A DNA stretch of 64,000 nucleotides. Origin: Planctomycetota bacterium (lineage in GTDB: Bacteria; Planctomycetota; Planctomycetia; Pirellulales; Pirellulaceae). The stretch spans positions 26,806-90,805 of the forward strand of contig JAPLNL010000092.1 in the NCBI GenBank assembly GCA_026692905.1, read 5' to 3'. The notes beneath the pieces were generated by a model. That model ran no database searches, was not told where the DNA came from, and worked only from the letters and a program-made list of their open reading frames with translations. The position numbers and the translations under genes are program-made. Shown here one piece after another: positions 30,861 through 40,173 of this stretch; position 1 is the stretch's first letter, and the number at the start of each line of letters is the position of its first letter.

Positions 30861-30957
30861 AATTGCGATGCTGGCTTAACGCACGTAGAACCAAACAAGA
30901 AGACAACCCCGATAGAGCTAGTGAAAGTCAAAACGATTCAAACTCGCTTTGATGCCC

Positions 30958-31055
30958 TAGCACGCCGCGCAAGCTAGTGAACTGGCCTTGACGCCTTAGC
31001 ACGACGCGCAAGCTAGTGAACTGGACAGTAAATTCACTAGCTTGCGCGTCGTGCT
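30958..31055. repeat. Family A element, two direct and one inverted copy
   Basis: TAGCACGCCGCGCAAGCTAG and TAGCACGACGCGCAAGCTAG, both followed by TGAACTGG, precede an inverted CTAGCTTGCGCGTCGTGCTA at 31036-31055. It lies just downstream of mscL. Confidence 0.92.
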
Positions 31056-31579: not shown

Positions 31580-31741
31580 AACTTCTTCTCCAGACTCCTA
31601 AACGAAAATTGAATCACGACTATGAATGCGTGCCTTGAAGTTTGATAGCTTTGTTATGCCTACTTGCATAGCGGTGCCGTAACAAATTCGTCCAAAATCT
31701 ACCCAAACTACGAAGAGCCCCTAGCTACTCTTGTTACAACC

Positions 31742-31771
31742 CATAGGCTTTTTGTATGCAATAAGCCTATG
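31742..31771 (+). promoter_or_regulatory. Perfect hairpin overlapping a candidate start codon
   Basis: CATAGGCTT (31742-31750) and AAGCCTATG (31763-31771) are perfect reverse complements with a 12-base loop. The final ATG of the stem is the first candidate start codon of the TPR gene. In RNA this would hide the start region. Confidence 0.5.
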
Positions 31772-33640
31772 TTTATGAAGAAAAACACCCTGTGCCTGGC
31801 TGTTGCGTTTGTGTTGATAACCACATGCGTCGGTTTTCCACAACAGCCTCAATCCAACTCGCTCTTAGCCCTCTACCAGAGTGCTAGGAGAGCGTATACC
31901 GACCGCAATTTTCAAAAGTCCGCCGAGCAGTTTCACGCCGTCGCTGAGCAATGTCCTGGTACCGAACTAGCCATTCAATGCGAATATTTTGCTGTCATGT
32001 CAGAATGGGCCACGGACCCTTGCGATGGCTGTGCTAGCAAACTTTCCAGTTGGCTCGCCAAAGCAAAGAAGTTTCAAGACGAAGCAATTGCAACCGGGAG
32101 GTCCTTCGATGCCAAACAGCTCTTCAAATGGACGGACAACGCCGAACTCGTTCACGCCAAATGGGACCGGCAGAAACAACGCTTTGAACTCGCCGAACAA
32201 CGCCTGAAAAAGCACCTAGGATTTGGCAAAGTCAATGCGGTGGAGGGAGCGGAATCTACCAGTTCGAAAACGAATCCGATCGCGTGGATGGAACTCGGTT
32301 CGCTCATGCTCGAACAACGACAAGATTACGCTGGCGCTCGAACTTGCTTTGACAAGGCAGTGCAGGGCACGAAAGAATCCGAGTCGACCCACTGCCAAGC
32401 ACTAATGGGTTGTGCGGTAACCTGTTGGTATGACAAGCAATACGCTGAAGCTCGAGCGTTCCTCGACCGACTTTCCGATCAGAAGCTCGACGATGATCTC
32501 ACGCTTCAAAGTCAATTGCTCAAAGTTAAGGTCGCAAAAGCCCTCGGCGAAACCGTGGACGTGGTCGAAACGCTCTCGCCTTTGATTCGCATCGCCCTCG
32601 CTAGCAATCCACCAGCGGCGACTCTTTACGAGCTCGCTATGGCCCTCATTGAGTCGGGTGACAAATCGAATTCGAACGAGATTTTGTTGCAACTCGTTCA
32701 TCGTTTTCCCGAGAGTCCGATCTCGATTGAAGCCCGAGTGCGGCTTGCTCAAAACGCTACGGAGAAGAAAGCTTGGAAAGAAGCGGCTGATTGGTCCGGC
32801 CAAGCGCTGGACATGGGCTGCAACAAAGAGCTCCATCCCTATGCGTGCTGGATACGCGGGCAAGCGCGATTTGAACTTGGGGCGTTCGAAGACGCCAAAG
32901 CGGACTTGGAAGCGGCCGTTAGCAATCCGTCGGGAAATATCCAGCTTGACGTGAGCGTCCGATTCCAATTGGCGGAGACGCTTTATCATCTACAGCGCTG
33001 GCCCGAAGCCGACACGCAATGGAAATGGCTGATTCAACTCGCGGACGCAAGCGACGCTAATGATGCTAGCAACGAAGGCAACGCTAGCAAGCCAGAGTGG
33101 TACTCAGTGGTCCTACTTAGGACGGCAGAATTGCTAGCGTTGCGAAAAGAGTGGGATGATGCCGAAAAAATCGTTTTGAGGATTCGTAACGATTTTCCCA
33201 AATGTAACCGCGCCTGCGAAGTCGATTACCTTTTAGCTAGATGTTTGCTCTCTAAGGCCGACTTCGATGCTGCGCGACAAGCGCTTACGTCGATTACACA
33301 GCGAACACGGCCGACCTCCGACGAGTTGGCGGCACGTGGGCACTGGATGACTGGCGAAACGTACTTGATGCAACGCAGGTACTCAGATGCGTTGGCTGCA
33401 TACCGCGAAGTGTTGCAGTTGCCAAAACAAGAGTATTGGATATGCGCGTCCCTGATGCAAATTGCAGAATGCTGTGAAGCATTGCGAGATCCGCAAGGTT
33501 CCAAGGATGCGTACGAAACCATTATCAACAACTACAGTCAGAGTCCGTTTGTTTCGATCGCCAAGGAACGACTGGACAAAATCAAGTCGATTTCAGTCGC
33601 CAATCAACCACCAAACGTACCCTCAGGAACCAAGCGATGA
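31769..33640 (+). CDS. Secreted TPR protein of the ExbB/ExbD operon
   Basis: 623 residues from ATG 31769 (second ATG at 31775). A signal peptide (KKNTLCLAVAFVLITTCVGF) is followed almost entirely by tetratricopeptide-like repeats, for instance LLALYQSARRAYTDRNFQKS, DYAGARTCFDKAVQG, ELGAFEDAKADLEAAVSNPS and MQRRYSDALAAYREVLQLPK. It is probably a periplasmic scaffold, comparable in position to YbgF/CpoB or other TPR partners of Tol/Exb motors. Its stop overlaps the ExbB-like start by four bases (ATGA). An earlier in-frame start at 31664 would put the signal peptide 35 residues in and is unlikely. Confidence 0.88.
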   Translation: MFMKKNTLCLAVAFVLITTCVGFPQQPQSNSLLALYQSARRAYTDRNFQKSAEQFHAVAEQCPGTELAIQCEYFAVMSEWATDPCDGCASKLSSWLAKAKKFQDEAIATGRSFDAKQLFKWTDNAELVHAKWDRQKQRFELAEQRLKKHLGFGKVNAVEGAESTSSKTNPIAWMELGSLMLEQRQDYAGARTCFDKAVQGTKESESTHCQALMGCAVTCWYDKQYAEARAFLDRLSDQKLDDDLTLQSQLLKVKVAKALGETVDVVETLSPLIRIALASNPPAATLYELAMALIESGDKSNSNEILLQLVHRFPESPISIEARVRLAQNATEKKAWKEAADWSGQALDMGCNKELHPYACWIRGQARFELGAFEDAKADLEAAVSNPSGNIQLDVSVRFQLAETLYHLQRWPEADTQWKWLIQLADASDANDASNEGNASKPEWYSVVLLRTAELLALRKEWDDAEKIVLRIRNDFPKCNRACEVDYLLARCLLSKADFDAARQALTSITQRTRPTSDELAARGHWMTGETYLMQRRYSDALAAYREVLQLPKQEYWICASLMQIAECCEALRDPQGSKDAYETIINNYSQSPFVSIAKERLDKIKSISVANQPPNVPSGTKR

Positions 33641-34695
33641 TGATGCAACTTCACTCCATCGCGAAATACGAGAGGTGCAACGGGTTCCAAGTTGCCTCGG
33701 CAATCTTTGCCTGGGCCGTACTGACTTCTCAAATGAGTTTAGGGCAACCGCCCCAAATGCTCCCAGGCACGAGACAGGCACAGCCAAGCAACTCATCGCA
33801 AAACAATGTTCCGGGCGGAAACAATGGCGGGGCGCGACAATATAATGCATTGAGTCCGCAGTCGCCTCCGAGCGGGTTTTCGCAACCAAGCGGTCAACCA
33901 TCGAGCTTTGGACAGCCCAACGCAAGACTCGCTGCCAATAACTCCTCGAACCCATTGCCATCTGTCAACGCGGGGGCAGTCAGCCTTACCGAGGTGTCGG
34001 CCAAAGAGGCAACGATTCCAACTCGCAATCTGCTGCAGATGTTTCACGATGGCGGGTTGATGATGTATCCGATTGCGCTATGCTCGTTCGTACTGACCGT
34101 TTTTTCTTTTGAGCGTTTCATTTCCCTTCGGAGCGGTCGCGTTATTCCACGGCCGTTTGTTAAGCGTTTGATCGAACAACTTCAGCAGGGGCAGATCGAT
34201 CGCGAGGAAGCCTTGGAACTTTGCGAACGCAATCCAAGTCCTATCGCCGCTATCCTTTCCGCCGCGGTAAAAAAATACGGTCGACCTGCCGTCGAGGTCG
34301 AGCAAGCTGTTCTTGACGCGGGCGAGCGTGAGAGCAACCTATTGCGCCGCAACATGAGGTTGTTGAACGCGATTAGCAATGTCTCTCCACTGCTCGGATT
34401 GTTGGGCACGGTGCTTGGAATGATCCAAGCGTTCAATGACATTGCCAGTGCGCAAGCGATGGGCCGTCCCGATCTTTTGGCTGGCGGTATTAGCCAAGCG
34501 TTGCTGACAACGGCCGCGGGATTGCTCGTCGCCATCCCGGCCTACTTAATTTACATGTTTTTCCTCGGACGCACCGACAAACTCGTCATGGAGATGGACA
34601 GCTACGCTCAACAGTTGGTCGAAGTCGTCAGTGCCGAAGGCTTGCATGAAAACGACTCGACGCGAACTAGAACGCGAGCTCGTAAGGCAGCTTAA
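33637..34695 (+). CDS. ExbB/TolQ/MotA-family proton-channel protein with secreted N-terminal extension
   Basis: 352 residues. The N-terminus has a hydrophobic signal-like stretch and then about 100 residues rich in Gln, Asn, Pro, Ser and Gly. The ExbB core starts at LLQMFHDGGLMMYPIALCSF (TM1, about 128), followed by a cytoplasmic domain and NAISNVSPLLGLLGTVLGMI and ALLTTAAGLLVAIPAYLIYM (TM2 and TM3), the diagnostic region of the family. With ExbD it uses the proton gradient to energise envelope events. The long disordered extracytoplasmic extension is a variation of the basic fold. Confidence 0.92.
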   Translation: MMMQLHSIAKYERCNGFQVASAIFAWAVLTSQMSLGQPPQMLPGTRQAQPSNSSQNNVPGGNNGGARQYNALSPQSPPSGFSQPSGQPSSFGQPNARLAANNSSNPLPSVNAGAVSLTEVSAKEATIPTRNLLQMFHDGGLMMYPIALCSFVLTVFSFERFISLRSGRVIPRPFVKRLIEQLQQGQIDREEALELCERNPSPIAAILSAAVKKYGRPAVEVEQAVLDAGERESNLLRRNMRLLNAISNVSPLLGLLGTVLGMIQAFNDIASAQAMGRPDLLAGGISQALLTTAAGLLVAIPAYLIYMFFLGRTDKLVMEMDSYAQQLVEVVSAEGLHENDSTRTRTRARKAA

Positions 34696-34815
34696 GTGAA
34701 CTCCGATAAATCGAAATACCCGTAAATCAACCTGGCTTGCTCATGTTTTTCGCTCGACAGTAACGTAACTACAAAAAACGTGTATTCCTTCACTTTTCAA
34801 AGGGTTTTGTTATTC

Positions 34816-34919
34816 CGGAGGGTGAGGCTCCTGCCACTCCCAAACGGTTTTGTTATTCGGGAGGGTGAGGCTCCTGCCGAACCTTGGCGTCAGAAGCTCG
34901 GCAGGAGCCTCGCACTCCC
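34816..34919. repeat. Family B inverted repeat with a truncated duplicate
   Basis: A full hairpin (34858-34919; GGAGGGTGAGGCTCCTGCC and GGCAGGAGCCTCGCACTCCC) is preceded by a left-arm-only copy at 34816-34842 and a duplicated flank GGTTTTGTTATTC. This looks like a partial duplication of element plus flank. It interrupts the spacing between the ExbB and ExbD genes; the rest of 34696-35016 holds no gene. Confidence 0.88.
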
Positions 34920-35016
34920 AAACGGACTTGGGGGATTCGAAACTTCACCCTGACGACTAGCCGAAGCAACCTTCCGTAATTTCCAAGCCCCCATTCCAAT
35001 GACTTGAGAAAATTCG

Positions 35017-35445
35017 ATGCCACTCAAGCTCAATCAAGACGAACTTCCAACGATCAATCTGACCAGTATGATCGATGTGTTGTTTCTGTTGATTATTTTT
35101 TTCATGGTGGGGACTCGTTTTACAGAAGACGAATCCAACATCAAAATCAACTTGGCCAAAGTCGCGCCCAATGGCTCGATGATGCAAGGCCCGCCAAGCA
35201 AAATCGTTTATGTGGCGGCCGACGGTTCCATTCAGTTCGAGAACCAACGTGTTACCCCCGATCAACTTGCTGCCATACTCACGCAAGCAGTTAGAAACTA
35301 TCCAGACACCTCCGTCCAATTGAAGCCCGATGCCAAGGTGGAGTACCAGCCTCTGAGCGCGGCGTTGATCGCCATTCAGCAATCGGGAGCTCGCTTTCAT
35401 GGACTTGGAAATGCAACTTACCAAATGCCGACTACTCGTCGTTAG
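35017..35445 (+). CDS. ExbD/TolR-family protein
   Basis: 142 residues. MPLKLNQDELPTINLTSMID leads into the single membrane helix VLFLLIIFFMVGTRF; the Asp in SMIDVLFLL is the conserved proton-carrying residue of ExbD/TolR. The periplasmic part ends with QLKPDAKVEYQPLSAALIA, as in ExbD domains. It is the stator partner of the ExbB-like protein. The toroid gene starts three bases after its stop. Confidence 0.93.
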   Translation: MPLKLNQDELPTINLTSMIDVLFLLIIFFMVGTRFTEDESNIKINLAKVAPNGSMMQGPPSKIVYVAADGSIQFENQRVTPDQLAAILTQAVRNYPDTSVQLKPDAKVEYQPLSAALIAIQQSGARFHGLGNATYQMPTTRR

Positions 35446-35448
35446 GTC

Positions 35449-37368
35449 ATGATGACAACGTTATGGGTACCATCGATAGCCGCAATCGGAGACCTCAGTA
35501 GCGGTCGTATCTGGGCGATCGTTTTGGGCGGATTGCTAGCCGTTGTCGCTGTCACGCTTTTGATCGCCTCGTGGACAAAATGGGGGCAAACCAAGTCGTT
35601 AACCAAATGCATTGCGTTGGCATTTCTTGCGCACATTTGGCTCCTCATGTACGCTTATGGAACCCGAATCGTAACGCCTGGCTTCGGAGGTGGTTCGCAG
35701 GGTGGGACTAGAACGGAAGCGGTGGCTTTTACTGCTCCTCTGTTGATGATGGAAGAGATACCAACGCCAGAAGATAACGCAACCAAGGATGTGGCGAGGG
35801 AAGACGATGGCGAGAAGGAATCGACGCCAGCTCCGTGGGAGGCACCGCTTCAACGCGAAGAAGTGTCAAACAAAACGCCGATCGACAACCCTACTCGAGA
35901 AACGTTGAAGCTGCCAGAGTCGATGGCTGAGTTTCCGAAGGAGATTCCGATGCCGAAGCCTGAGAGCTTCGAGCCAGAGCTGCCGCCGATGGAGTCGATC
36001 GAGCAAATTGCTGTTCTCGCAGCAACGTCTGCGCCTGCATCAGCTGTTCCATCCGCTGTGCCGCCAAACGCATCTGTTCTTGCCGTGGTTCCGAACCGTT
36101 TGCCCGTTAAGCCATCTGCACCTCAGAAACGAATCGTGGATCAACAGCCGGTGCCCAACAACTATCAGATGCGTTTGTCTCCGATGCGACAGCAGTTTGC
36201 GATGCAGAATGGAGGCGACGTCAATACCGAGGCTGCGGTCGAGCGCGCGTTGGCTTGGTTGGCTCGCGCGCAGGGACCGGATGGTGGTTGGAATGCGGCT
36301 GAGCACGAAGCGGGTCGCGAAGCTCCTGTCAGCCTTGGTCGCAATGATATTGAGAACCGTCACAACGCTGGACTCAAGGCCAATACCGCAATGACGGGAC
36401 TAGCGTTGCTCGCTTTTCTAGGAGCGGGGCACACCCATACCGACGGCAAGTACAAAGACGTTGTAGCGAATGGTCTGCGGTATCTTCGATCTCAACAGCA
36501 GTTCTCGGGAGATCTTGCAGGTAGAGACCAAGTTGGCCACGAGCCGACGGTTCGATTCGCCAGAATGTACAGTCACGGCATGGCCTCGTTGGCAGCGACG
36601 GAGGCCTATGGAATGACGGGCGATCCTGCATTGTTGGACACCGTCCGGAATTCCTGCAAGTACACCATCGGCAACATGAATAGCCGAACCGGAGGCTGGA
36701 GATACGAATACAACAACGACGATCCAGGTGACCTAAGCCAATTTGGATGGCAAGCCATGTTGCTCTGCAGTGCGGAGAATCATCGAACGATTGTGCTTCC
36801 GCCAGAGACCCGATTGCTGATGCAAAGATTCCTCGATTCGGTAAGCACTGGCCGATTTGGTGGGCTGGCTGTGTACCGACCAAAGTCTGGCCAGATGGCA
36901 CCTCCGGAACAAGCGACTCCAGCTATGACAGCCGAAGCGATCGCATCTCGACTCTTGCTGGGCTTCCCGCTTTCGCAACAAGCAGCAGATGAGGGACAGC
37001 GAATGATGCTGAGCAACTTGCCCGGTACGAGCGAAGAGAACCTCTACTACTGGTACTATGCGACGCTTGCTATGTATCAATTGCGAGGCGATGTTGAGAA
37101 TGCCACAAATAGCAATACGGTCTTTAGGTCAAATAAGGAAGTGGCCTGGGAGCGATGGAACGAATCGCTTAAGCAACAGCTCTGCGTCACCCAAGTGCCT
37201 CGCGGGCCACTCGAGGGCTCGTGGAACCCAACTTGCGTATGGGGCAGACATGGTGGTCGCGTGTACTCAACAGCCGTCGCCTGCATGTGTTTGGAAGTTT
37301 ACTACCGTTACTTGCCGATGTACAAAGCCGACCAGTTCGCGAATCAATGGCAGCCCGCTCGGCGATAG
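35449..37368 (+). CDS. Membrane-anchored terpenoid-cyclase-fold (prenyltransferase/squalene-oxidase repeat) protein
   Basis: 639 residues. Two membrane helices (IWAIVLGGLLAVVAVTLLIA and CIALAFLAHIWLLMYAYG, about 21-70) are followed by a long Pro/Glu-rich linker (about 95-230), much like TonB or TolA, and then an alpha/alpha toroid: VERALAWLARAQGPDGGWNA, VVANGLRYLRSQQ, NSRTGGWRYEYNNDD and GSWNPTCVWGRHGGRVYSTA (about 258-620). The toroid is the fold of squalene cyclases and protein prenyltransferases, but the DxDD cyclase motif is not seen, so a binding role is more likely. Position after ExbB/ExbD suggests it is the element moved or energised by them (inference). Confidence 0.86.
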   Translation: MMTTLWVPSIAAIGDLSSGRIWAIVLGGLLAVVAVTLLIASWTKWGQTKSLTKCIALAFLAHIWLLMYAYGTRIVTPGFGGGSQGGTRTEAVAFTAPLLMMEEIPTPEDNATKDVAREDDGEKESTPAPWEAPLQREEVSNKTPIDNPTRETLKLPESMAEFPKEIPMPKPESFEPELPPMESIEQIAVLAATSAPASAVPSAVPPNASVLAVVPNRLPVKPSAPQKRIVDQQPVPNNYQMRLSPMRQQFAMQNGGDVNTEAAVERALAWLARAQGPDGGWNAAEHEAGREAPVSLGRNDIENRHNAGLKANTAMTGLALLAFLGAGHTHTDGKYKDVVANGLRYLRSQQQFSGDLAGRDQVGHEPTVRFARMYSHGMASLAATEAYGMTGDPALLDTVRNSCKYTIGNMNSRTGGWRYEYNNDDPGDLSQFGWQAMLLCSAENHRTIVLPPETRLLMQRFLDSVSTGRFGGLAVYRPKSGQMAPPEQATPAMTAEAIASRLLLGFPLSQQAADEGQRMMLSNLPGTSEENLYYWYYATLAMYQLRGDVENATNSNTVFRSNKEVAWERWNESLKQQLCVTQVPRGPLEGSWNPTCVWGRHGGRVYSTAVACMCLEVYYRYLPMYKADQFANQWQPARR

Positions 37369-37556: not shown

Positions 37557-40173
37557 ATGAAAAACGAATCCTCCTCCGCGAGGCTGGCGCCCGAGCTGCT
37601 AGCCCCGGCAGGAAACTGGGAATGTATCCACGCAGCGATCGAAAACGGGGCCGATGCTGTCTACTTCGGACTTGATGCTGGCTTTAACGCGCGTGCTCGA
37701 GCGGTCAACTTCTCACTCGAAGATTTGCCAAGTCTCATGCAGCTGCTTCACCGACGCGGCTTGGTCGGTTTCGTCACTCTCAACACCCTCATTTTTACTG
37801 ACGAACTGGCTCAGTTCGAAAAGCACGTAGCCGAGTTGGCTTCGGCTGGTGTTGATGCCGTGCTAGTACAGGACTTGGGCGCAGTCCGACTCATTCATGA
37901 AATATGCCCTGAATTGAGTGTGCATGCCAGCACTCAGATGACCATGTCTTCGGCGGAAACCATTCGAGCCATTGAGTCCCTGAACGTAGACCGCGTCGTC
38001 CTTGCTCGAGAGCTCTCGATTGCGGAAATTCGCAAGATCACGGCGGCAACGAATATGCCGGTCGAGACATTTGTTCACGGTGCGTTGTGTGTCTCGTACA
38101 GCGGCCAATGCTTGACCAGTGAATCCTTGGGGGGCCGCAGTGCCAATCGTGGCCAATGCGCACAAGCCTGCCGATTGAACTACGACCTTCTCTGCGATGG
38201 CGAACATCGGGAGCTAGGGGACAATCGCTACCTATTGTCGCCGCAAGACTTGGCCGGATATGCTCACATTCCCGATTTGATTGACGCGGGGGTTTGCTCT
38301 CTCAAGATCGAAGGCCGACTCAAGACACCAGAGTACGTCGCCAATATCGTTGGTCATTATCGCAAAGCTATCGATGCAGCTATGGCGGGCAACGAGGTCC
38401 GTTGGTCGAATCAGGACAAGCGTGAAATGGAGATGAGTTTCTCACGCGGCTTCACACCAGGTTGGCTCGAAGGCTGCGATCACAAACGACTTGTGCCCGG
38501 CATCACGAGCGCCAAACAGGGCGTTCGCGTCGGCAAGGTGATCGCGATCAAAGGGGAGAAATTGGTGGTTGACCTCGAAGCCCCATTGATCAAAGGGGAC
38601 GGGGTTGTGCTGCAAGGAGATCGTATCTCGGGAACAGAAATCGGCGGACGCATTTTTCAGGTGTTTGTCAACGGTAAGGCCACCGACTTGCCCAGCCAGG
38701 GACGAGTCGAATTGGCTTTTCAAAATGGTCTCTTTCGAAATGTTGAAATCAAATCGGGGCAAACGATCTGGCAAACCGATTCTCCTCAATTGAGTAAACG
38801 CTTACGAGCAAGTTTTGCGTCCGAACAGTTTTTGCGAAAGCTCTCGATCGAACTCGCGATGAATGTCCGAACAGTTTTTGCGAAAGCTCTCGATCGAACT
38901 CGCGATGAATATCTCCGTGGGAGTGCCGATCGCGGCTCAGGTGAGTTGGCTGAACACTACCGGTGTAACACAAACGCTGGAGCTAACGACGGAGCATGTG
39001 CCAGCAGAGGCCAGAAAGCACTCGATTACCGAGGCCGAATTGCGGCAGCAAATGTCTCGGCTTGGCAATACTCCTTACGAGTTAACGTCACTAAAAGCAT
39101 TGATTACCGGAAACCCGATGGTTCCGCTAAGCGTATTGGGGGAATTGCGAAAGCAGATGGTGAGTGAACTGGATCGGTTGCGCACGGCCCTACCACTTCG
39201 CACTATATTGGATGCAGGTGTCGCAAAACGTATGGTGGGGAGGCTCGACGATAGGCCGAACCAAATAGTAGCGGGATTGGCGGAGGATTCAGCAGACGAG
39301 TTGGCGGTTGCGGAGCGACTGCACGTGTTGGTTCGCACCATGGAGCAGTTGCGACAGGTTTTGGGTGAGGGCCAAAAGACAGTTTATGTCGAGTTTCAAG
39401 ATATACGCGAATACCGAGAGGCGGTAGCCGCGGCGCGTGAAGCCAACGCAGCGATTTACCTTGCGACGCTTCGGATCCAAAAGCCCGGCGAGCAGGGGCT
39501 TTTTAAAGCGATTGCCAAGCATGATGCTGATGGTTGGCTGGTTCGCAATTTGGCTGCATTGGATTTTGCGATTGAGAATCAAATTCCTGCGATCGGCGAT
39601 TTTTCACTGAACGTAACCAATCCATTGACAGCCGAATGGTTGATGTCGAGAGGGCTAAAGCGAATCACGGCTTCGTATGATTTGAACCGCGATCAGTTGA
39701 ATGAGTTGGTTCAAGGGATGCCTGCTTCCTGGCTAGAAGTGGTGATTCATCAGCACATGCCGATGTTTCATATGGAGCATTGTGTTTTTTGCACTGTGCT
39801 TTCGCCCGGCACGAACAAGTCGAACTGCGGCCGCCCATGCGATCGACACGAGGTTAAATTGCGAGACCGTCTTGGAGTGGAGCACGTTTTGCACGCCGAT
39901 ATCGGTTGCAGAAACACACTTTACAATGGTCATGCTCAGAGCGGTGCCGAGGCAACGCCAAAGCTACTGCGCATGGGAATTGAGCATTTTCGAATTGAGC
40001 TTTTGCGCGACGCGCCGGCCAATGAGACATCGCGGTTGCTTGGTCTTTACAGGGACCTATTGGCTGGACGAATAGATGGTCCAACGGTTTGGAAATCGCT
40101 GAAGGCCGAGAATCGCGTGGGGGTTACACGCGGGACTCTCGAGCACCCACGGAATCCCCTGGCAATTCTCTGA
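37557..40173 (+). pseudogene. U32 family peptidase / RNA hydroxylase (RlhA-like), frameshifted by a 46-bp duplication
   Basis: Two overlapping frames, 37557-39167 and 38863-40173, are halves of one U32 protein. The first half has APAGNWECIHAAIENGADAV, a typical U32 start, and the signature HGALCVSYSGQCL with GGRSANRGQCAQACR. The second half has the C-terminal HQHMPMFHMEHCVFCTVLSP and CGRPCDRHEV cluster. At 38819-38910 a 46-bp segment is present twice in tandem, shifting the frame by one. Removing one copy would restore a continuous frame of 856 residues. U32 relatives in E. coli (RlhA, TrhP) act in rRNA or tRNA hydroxylation. ATG 38863, made by the duplication, could start the second half on its own, but no ribosome-binding site is evident. 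A sequencing or assembly error cannot be excluded. Confidence 0.9.
38819..38910 (+). repeat. 46-bp perfect tandem duplication inside the U32 gene
   Basis: Unit 1 is 38819-38864 and unit 2 is 38865-38910, identical over 46 bases, starting GTCCGAACAGTTTTTGCGAA and ending CTCGCGATGAAT. 46 is not a multiple of three, hence the frameshift. Confidence 0.96.

Follow-up and report, generated by a model that had tools for sequence, protein, structure and literature searches.

Within a 64,000-nucleotide stretch of a Planctomycetota genome that is 96% complete (Pirellulaceae; assembly GCA_026692905.1, contig JAPLNL010000092.1, positions 26,806 to 90,805; hereafter the window), four consecutive genes on the + strand code for a tetratricopeptide repeat (TPR) protein, an ExbB/TolQ-like subunit, an ExbD/TolR-like subunit and a protein whose C-terminal domain is predicted to adopt an alpha/alpha toroid fold (the toroid protein). 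This is a conserved motor-toroid gene cluster carried by many Planctomycetota. The toroid protein is probably the partner that its own TolQR/ExbBD-type motor energises, i.e. a TonB/TolA-like transducer with a toroid tip that is devoid of the cyclase motif and with a role that would be Tol-like. An initial annotation, made from the sequence alone, had already proposed it as the energised partner, and this is supported by the presence of a TonB/TolA-type [S/A]-x3-H motif in its second membrane helix and, for part of the family, by a D-box-like strand at TonB's spacing; the transmission of force is itself inferred. The features of the locus are as follows.

31775..33640, + strand: TPR protein with a signal-peptide-like start, CpoB/YbgF-like (Pfam TPR families; NCBIfam TIGR02795)
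33637..34695, + strand: ExbB/TolQ-like proton-channel subunit (MotA_ExbB, 103.8 bits, residues 201-321)
34795..34930, no strand assigned: REP/MITE-like palindromic repeat, dispersed, in the exbB-exbD gap (matched 84 times genome-wide, many sites on both strands)
35017..35445, + strand: ExbD/TolR-like subunit (ExbD, 83.6 bits; alignment to ExbD chains)
35449..37368, + strand: toroid protein, 639 amino acids, with TonB/TolA-like anchor, linker and predicted terpene-cyclase-fold domain (Pfam, AlphaFold2 (AF2))
35500..35577, + strand: predicted transmembrane (TM) helix 1 of the toroid protein, residues 18-43 (AF2 secondary structure; hydropathy of relatives)
35593..35661, + strand: predicted TM helix 2 of the toroid protein, residues 49-71, with A58-x3-H62 (AF2; motif conservation)
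35662..36186, + strand: Pro/Glu-rich linker, residues 72-246, predicted to be disordered (mostly pLDDT <50; sequence)
36187..37350, + strand: predicted alpha/alpha toroid domain, residues 247-634, without DxDD (AF2, Foldseek, VIA-align, conservation)

Organization and conservation of the gene set

The initial annotation described four genes in one direction with tightly packed outer pairs, and this is what is found: the TPR and ExbB genes overlap by 4 bases, and the ExbD and toroid genes are 3 bases apart. The start it gave for the TPR gene (31742) is not a start codon and was corrected; the open frame spans 31664-33640, with in-frame ATGs at 31769 and 31775, and when read from the latter the protein has an N-terminus resembling a signal peptide. 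The ExbB-ExbD gap measures 321 bases in the window and contains the palindromic repeat; across 110 loci its median is 35 bases, and it exceeds 321 in four. The REP/MITE-like repeat of approximately 70 bases at 34795-34930 thus widens a gap which is usually short in relatives. Promoter and terminator scans gave sites that were not above those of shuffled sequence.

All 60 genomes sampled from the host family have toroid homologues (including all of the 31 that were examined further), as do 242 of 292 sampled from the phylum, usually in several copies. Linkage to a motor was defined as a profile match above 25 bits on the same strand within 6 kb of the toroid gene, and was assessed in two sets of loci with at least 11 contigs in common. 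The 80-locus set consists of the best 80 of 402 relatives, picked by similarity to the window protein, and therefore describes orthologues rather than all toroids; the nearest full-length relatives amongst them are from Pirellula-type metagenome-assembled genomes, and 79 of the 80 are titled as Planctomycetota groups (one as “bacterium”). The 53-locus set comprises 52 proteins, each the best match in its genome, plus a single second copy (L125). In the first set, TPR, ExbB and ExbD genes accompany the toroid gene at 56 loci and ExbB and ExbD genes at 9, the remaining 15 being too short upstream. Conservation beside exbBD, which had been set as a test of the proposal, is hence seen in all 65 testable loci, always upstream and on the same strand, with a median ExbD-toroid gap of 6 bases. 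The corresponding numbers for the second set are 29 with all three genes, 9 with ExbB and ExbD (in two of which, L107 and L112, the ExbB gene is some 4 kb distant, next to a different ExbD gene), 1 with TPR and ExbB, 11 with ExbD only, 1 with none and 2 too short. The ExbD-only loci are L125 and the ten of family f4 (L102, L104, L108-L111, L113-L115 and L117), where ExbD stands beside the toroid gene with no recognisable ExbB gene adjoining. The gene set is conserved around the toroid gene beyond chance.

Motor subunits

The pore Thr residues and the membrane Asp of ExbB/TolQ-ExbD/TolR motors are all present in the operon proteins. According to alignment with solved chains, S150, T258, T292 and P301 of the ExbB-like protein correspond to S34, T148, T181 and P190 of E. 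coli ExbB. The T148 equivalent is kept in 40 of 40 ExbB-like rows, those of T181 and P190 in 39 of 40 each, and that of Ser34 in 38 of the 39 ungapped ones; the E176 position is Gln in 28 of 40, and the Trp (ExbB Trp38/TolQ Trp32) is not kept. In alignment, Asp20 of the ExbD-like protein is the counterpart of E. coli ExbD Asp25, a position occupied by D in all 49 aligned rows. The ExbB-like protein also starts like a signal peptide and carries a long N-terminal extension of low complexity (approximately residues 1-138). This extension had been noticed earlier and recurs in relatives, with a conserved membrane-proximal motif in 90 of 95 ExbB ORFs (median position 104, with ORF starts set mechanically).

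Membrane anchor and motor-contact histidine

The architecture first described for the toroid protein, with two membrane helices, a Pro/Glu-rich linker and an alpha/alpha toroid, agrees with both the single-chain AF2 model and the sequence. The model predicts the two helices (18-43 and 49-71) with moderate confidence, and the basic residues between them suggest that helix 2 has the TonB orientation. In E. coli, Ser16-His20 of TonB contact Ser34/Trp38 of ExbB and Ser18-His22 of TolA contact Ser28/Trp32 of TolQ, the histidine being essential in both TonB and TolA (sections of PMC12215075). In an alignment that was not selected for this residue, 56 of the 57 ungapped toroid-protein rows have His at column 62, and the residue four places earlier is Ser in 53 and Ala in 4. 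The window protein is one with Ala (Ala58, where TonB has Ser16), its motif being A-x3-H, while most relatives have S-x3-H. Amongst the 131 distinct toroid proteins of the fetched loci (fragments included), 122 have a predicted TM helix, and an intramembrane [S/A]-x3-H is found in 118 of these, compared with 8/187 other TM-bearing ORFs, 1/101 ExbB, 0/115 ExbD and 0/72 TPR proteins. Of the four left out of this count, L084 and L094 have the motif by eye, below the hydropathy threshold, L072 has none, and L219 was not looked at by eye. L071 and L072 are toroid paralogues without the membrane motif; they are perhaps secreted, and could be free partners or enzymes. Database homologues give a similar picture, with A-x3-H in 107 of 120 homologues close to the window protein (the remainder includes fragments) and S-x3-H in 115 of 120 homologues of a protein in which the toroid is fused to a propeller. 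The Leu and second Ser of the SHLS motif are not kept (the His+7 and His+11 columns are mostly Ala and Arg/Gln/Lys), and these two are less conserved in Ton as well (sections of PMC12215075).

Toroid and motor genes could also be co-transcribed neighbours with separate functions. Six of the seven toroid paralogues in the window's own genome are orphans without an adjoining motor gene (the seventh adjoins an ExbD gene), and the f4 loci retain ExbD alone, as such an arrangement would allow. The orphans nevertheless retain the S-x3-H motif (seen for one orphan in 114 of its 120 homologues), which suggests that they use an unlinked motor, eight MotA_ExbB loci being present in the genome. In a tree of 45 tips, a single clade of 27 tips (support 0.93) unites the motor-linked toroids, four propeller fusions among them, which also argues against mere proximity, and we regard this explanation as very improbable. 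Another clade, of 12 tips (support 0.97), contains the orphan paralogues and related sequences, and four further propeller-toroid tips are basal, perhaps because the domain cut took the wrong stretch. One locus (L069, 3818-12477) codes for an ExbD-like protein, a 935-residue toroid protein with S-x3-H, a divergent 503-residue MotA/ExbB and a 703-residue protein with an N-terminal hydrophobic stretch, and is possibly a second toroid motor.

A second possible TonB-like trait is the D-box-like strand. Of 119 toroid proteins, 45 have its five-residue core 18-43 residues past the His, most commonly at an offset of 25; shuffled sequences give 9.4 (at most 22 in any of 500 shuffles), and 16 of 476 linker windows from elsewhere match; as for all D-box counts here, these come from related sequences and are not independent events. 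The full seven-residue pattern was found in 18 of 119 (1.7 shuffled), and an initial loose pattern in 53 of them (4 of 357 in windows from elsewhere). With the strict core, 31 of 107 close database homologues match (10.2 shuffled) and 32 of 114 orphan homologues (21.6 shuffled), while the propeller-toroid proteins are not above chance (10/116 against 12.1). A relaxed pattern allowing Ala as a hydrophilic position, chosen after the strict result was known, matches 53/107 (12.3 shuffled), 42/114 (26.5 shuffled) and 82/115 (17.4 shuffled) of the three groups, respectively. In the window protein itself the strict pattern finds nothing.

The toroid domain

In the AF2 model the ordered toroid extends over approximately residues 247-620, and the linker (approximately 72-246) is mostly of low confidence. 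AF2, Foldseek and VIA-align all predict an alpha/alpha toroid for the C-terminal domain, and SQHop_cyclase_C matches the protein with 28.0 bits (cut-off 26.1). TonB_C (PF03544) was found neither in the window toroid protein nor elsewhere in its genome, so that the toroid does stand in place of the TonB C-terminal domain, as had been proposed, and the TolA C-terminal domain (PF06519) was not found in the protein either. Identity with canonical TonB or TolA was rejected since neither domain matches.

The absence of a full cyclase motif, which the proposal also required, was borne out: DxDDTA is missing from the last 420 residues of all 141 locus proteins and all 360 database proteins. In these two groups, 7 and 95 members, respectively, do contain a bare DxDD, the printed examples being at other, non-aligned places. 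The DxDD position reads DPGD, with Gly427 at the presumed catalytic-acid position in 130 of 136 rows (a reading of the sequence, without structural superposition) and with D428 invariant. A terpene-cyclase enzyme was accordingly rejected. Compared with squalene-hopene cyclase, a class II terpene cyclase, the protein has a single toroid domain placed behind a membrane anchor and linker.

The domain could still be a membrane-tethered enzyme, acting on a glycan or lipid and positioned or gated by the motor, rather than a mechanical gripper. Toroids similar in fold, as found by Foldseek and VIA-align, include sugar epimerases and mannanases of family GH76, several charged and aromatic positions hardly vary among 138 sequences (R418, Y419, D428, Y476, Y533, Y536 and R604 are 96-100% conserved), and Pec_lyase (PF09492) matches relatives, twice above the cut-off (L125 and L101) and otherwise below it. 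Invariance alone is however no proof of catalysis, no known catalytic set was recognised, the class II DxDDTA is absent, and the conserved motor-contact histidine would be left unexplained. A tethered enzyme is for these reasons quite unlikely.

A Tol-like or a TonB-like role

The TonB-like character given to the protein by the initial annotation is in keeping with the motor-contact histidine and, in part of the family, with the D-box-like strand; it needs refining for the Ala in place of Ser16, for the lack of a strict D-box in the window protein, and for a parts list that looks nearer to Tol. The TPR protein scores above the cut-off of the tol_pal_ybgF model (TIGR02795, 93.7 against 90.1 bits), the ExbB-like protein scores higher with the TolQ model (87 bits) than with the ExbB model (60 bits), both being under the curated cut-offs, and some relatives, part of them Phycisphaerales, carry the toroid fused to a PD40 propeller. 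These propeller-toroid fusions (L119, L120 and P0241-P0360; approximately 800-1870 residues) form a large family with Phycisphaerales members, and at the two fusion loci that were read, L119 and L120, the TPR, ExbB and ExbD genes lie upstream.

The 31 family genomes point the same way. They contain no match to TolB_N, and none to the TolA C-terminal domain, although the latter model matches only 1 of 14 control genomes. A TonB-dependent receptor barrel was detected in 23 and undetected in 8, and at all seven loci fetched from these eight genomes the ExbB and ExbD genes are upstream of the toroid gene. An OmpA domain, which need be neither Pal nor linked to the motor, is found in 30 of the 31. 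The YbgF/CpoB-like TPR protein, the undetected TolA and TolB, the toroids of genomes without detected receptors and the fused propeller together make a Tol-like role more likely than TonB-like import.

Import would have the motor-driven toroid protein open outer-membrane receptors or hand over a lipid or glycan held in its pocket. The D-box-like stretches of relatives resemble the ISVTMVT of TonB in pattern and spacing, and the seven conserved toroid residues, the receptor barrels of 23 genomes and the multi-copy nature of the family, with 8 matches for the window's genome, would suit it. TonB is itself often multi-copy. Import is harder to reconcile with toroid homologues and their upstream motor genes in genomes without a detected barrel, with the ordinary TonB_C proteins that 17 of the 31 genomes already own, and with the lack of a partner gene outside the operon, where the largest cluster of neighbours (clusters not annotated) covers only 11 of 133 loci. 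We therefore judge it unlikely, if somewhat less so than a tethered enzyme.

With the toroid protein as a Tol-like transducer, protons would cross a ring of the ExbB-like protein and a dimer of the ExbD-like one (Asp20), and helix 2 would dock outside the ring via His62, as TonB and TolA do via His20 and His22. In many relatives the D-box-like strand may next engage the ExbD dimer. The linker would span the periplasm and the toroid bind a partner in the cell envelope and pull, so keeping the inner membrane, the cell wall and the outer membrane attached to one another; the CpoB-like TPR protein would be a putative periplasmic coordinator, and a propeller protein a possible client. A wider proposal, which we advance tentatively, is a Tol-like trans-envelope machine of the Planctomycetota's own, built around the ring, with a TolQR-type motor pulling TonB/TolA-like anchors that grip through inactivated-cyclase toroids, propeller fusions in one branch (with Phycisphaerales) and orphans sharing motors. 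The orphan anchors could then be alternative, exchangeable grippers for one motor type, and the fused propeller could be TolB-like. One set of results lowers our confidence in both the transducer and the wider machine. The PD40 propeller is the best Foldseek look-alike of TolB, but the VIA-align search with the propeller-toroid model gave glycosidase propellers for the propeller region, with no TolB among the 50 matches listed, and hence no backing for TolB. A sequence search of the propeller-toroid protein against solved structures found nothing at E 0.01.

Other features of the window

A U32-peptidase-like gene (37557-40173) is broken by a perfect tandem duplication of 46 bases (38819-38910), so that it occupies two frames that overlap; this length is not a multiple of 3, and the duplication is a real frameshift, a slippage site or an assembly error. 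A 39-base tandem repeat of 2.2 copies (30941-31024) lies directly 3' of an MscL-like gene on the minus strand.

Comparison with known systems

The nearest known systems are force transducers tipped by a vWA domain, which have been proposed, alongside tolQ, tolR and a TPR gene, for bacteria of the Planctomycetota-Verrucomicrobiota-Chlamydiota group (sections of PMC12204202, Mol Biol Evol 2025). They have the same motor and anchor but another effector domain, vWA together with a pair of tolR genes, where the present locus has a predicted toroid and one exbD/tolR. Pfam and NCBIfam scans found no vWA in the window toroid protein, and a term search of the main text of that paper gave no mention of toroid, squalene, prenyltransferase or cyclase. 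The Tol-Pal system (TolA-TolQR, TolB, Pal, CpoB) shares the TolQ/TolR-like motor, the [S/A]-x3-H anchor, a CpoB/YbgF-like TPR protein and, through the fusions, a PD40 propeller; it differs by its TolA C-terminal domain, its TolB_N and TolA matches (none in the 31 genomes) and its pal gene, which is not in the four-gene set. With TonB-ExbBD the locus has in common the equivalents of ExbD Asp25 and ExbB Thr148/Thr181/Pro190, the motor-contact His and, in many relatives, the D-box-like strand, whereas it has no TonB_C, an extra helix 1 ahead of helix 2 and an effector toroid of approximately 390 residues. As for PorE of Bacteroidetes, the propellers of two fusions scored highest against two NCBIfam models, PorE and the OmpA-like CHU_0125, far under the cut-offs, and part of the fusions bear a carboxypeptidase-regulatory domain as PorE does; no OmpA/Pal domain was found in six fusions scanned with Pfam, and PorE is described without a toroid (sections of PMC12204202).

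Searches of the open PMC library, including passages of PMC12204202, PMC12215075, PMC12505986, PMC10907165 and PMC2754498, turned up nothing that ties ExbBD or TolQR to a toroid or a protein resembling squalene cyclase. In Rhodopirellula baltica, an exbB/exbD pair (RB12053/RB12055) is induced by salt (PMC2754498). A term search of the main text of the Planctopirus essential-gene paper (PMC10632474) returned nothing on this system. Since the vWA proposal is without a toroid and no toroid-motor link was found elsewhere, what is new here is the effector fold, on a kind of motor and anchor already proposed recently.

The named members of the toroid family are mostly annotated as hypothetical or as “prenyltransferase/squalene oxidase repeat-containing”. 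If the present reading is true, this widespread, multi-copy planctomycete family would be a set of proton-driven force transducers. The TonB/TolA anchor would then be a module joined to unrelated domains (TonB_C, vWA and toroid), and the terpene-cyclase fold would have been reused as a mechanical effector, with the helix-2 histidine as the single residue predicted to be critical.

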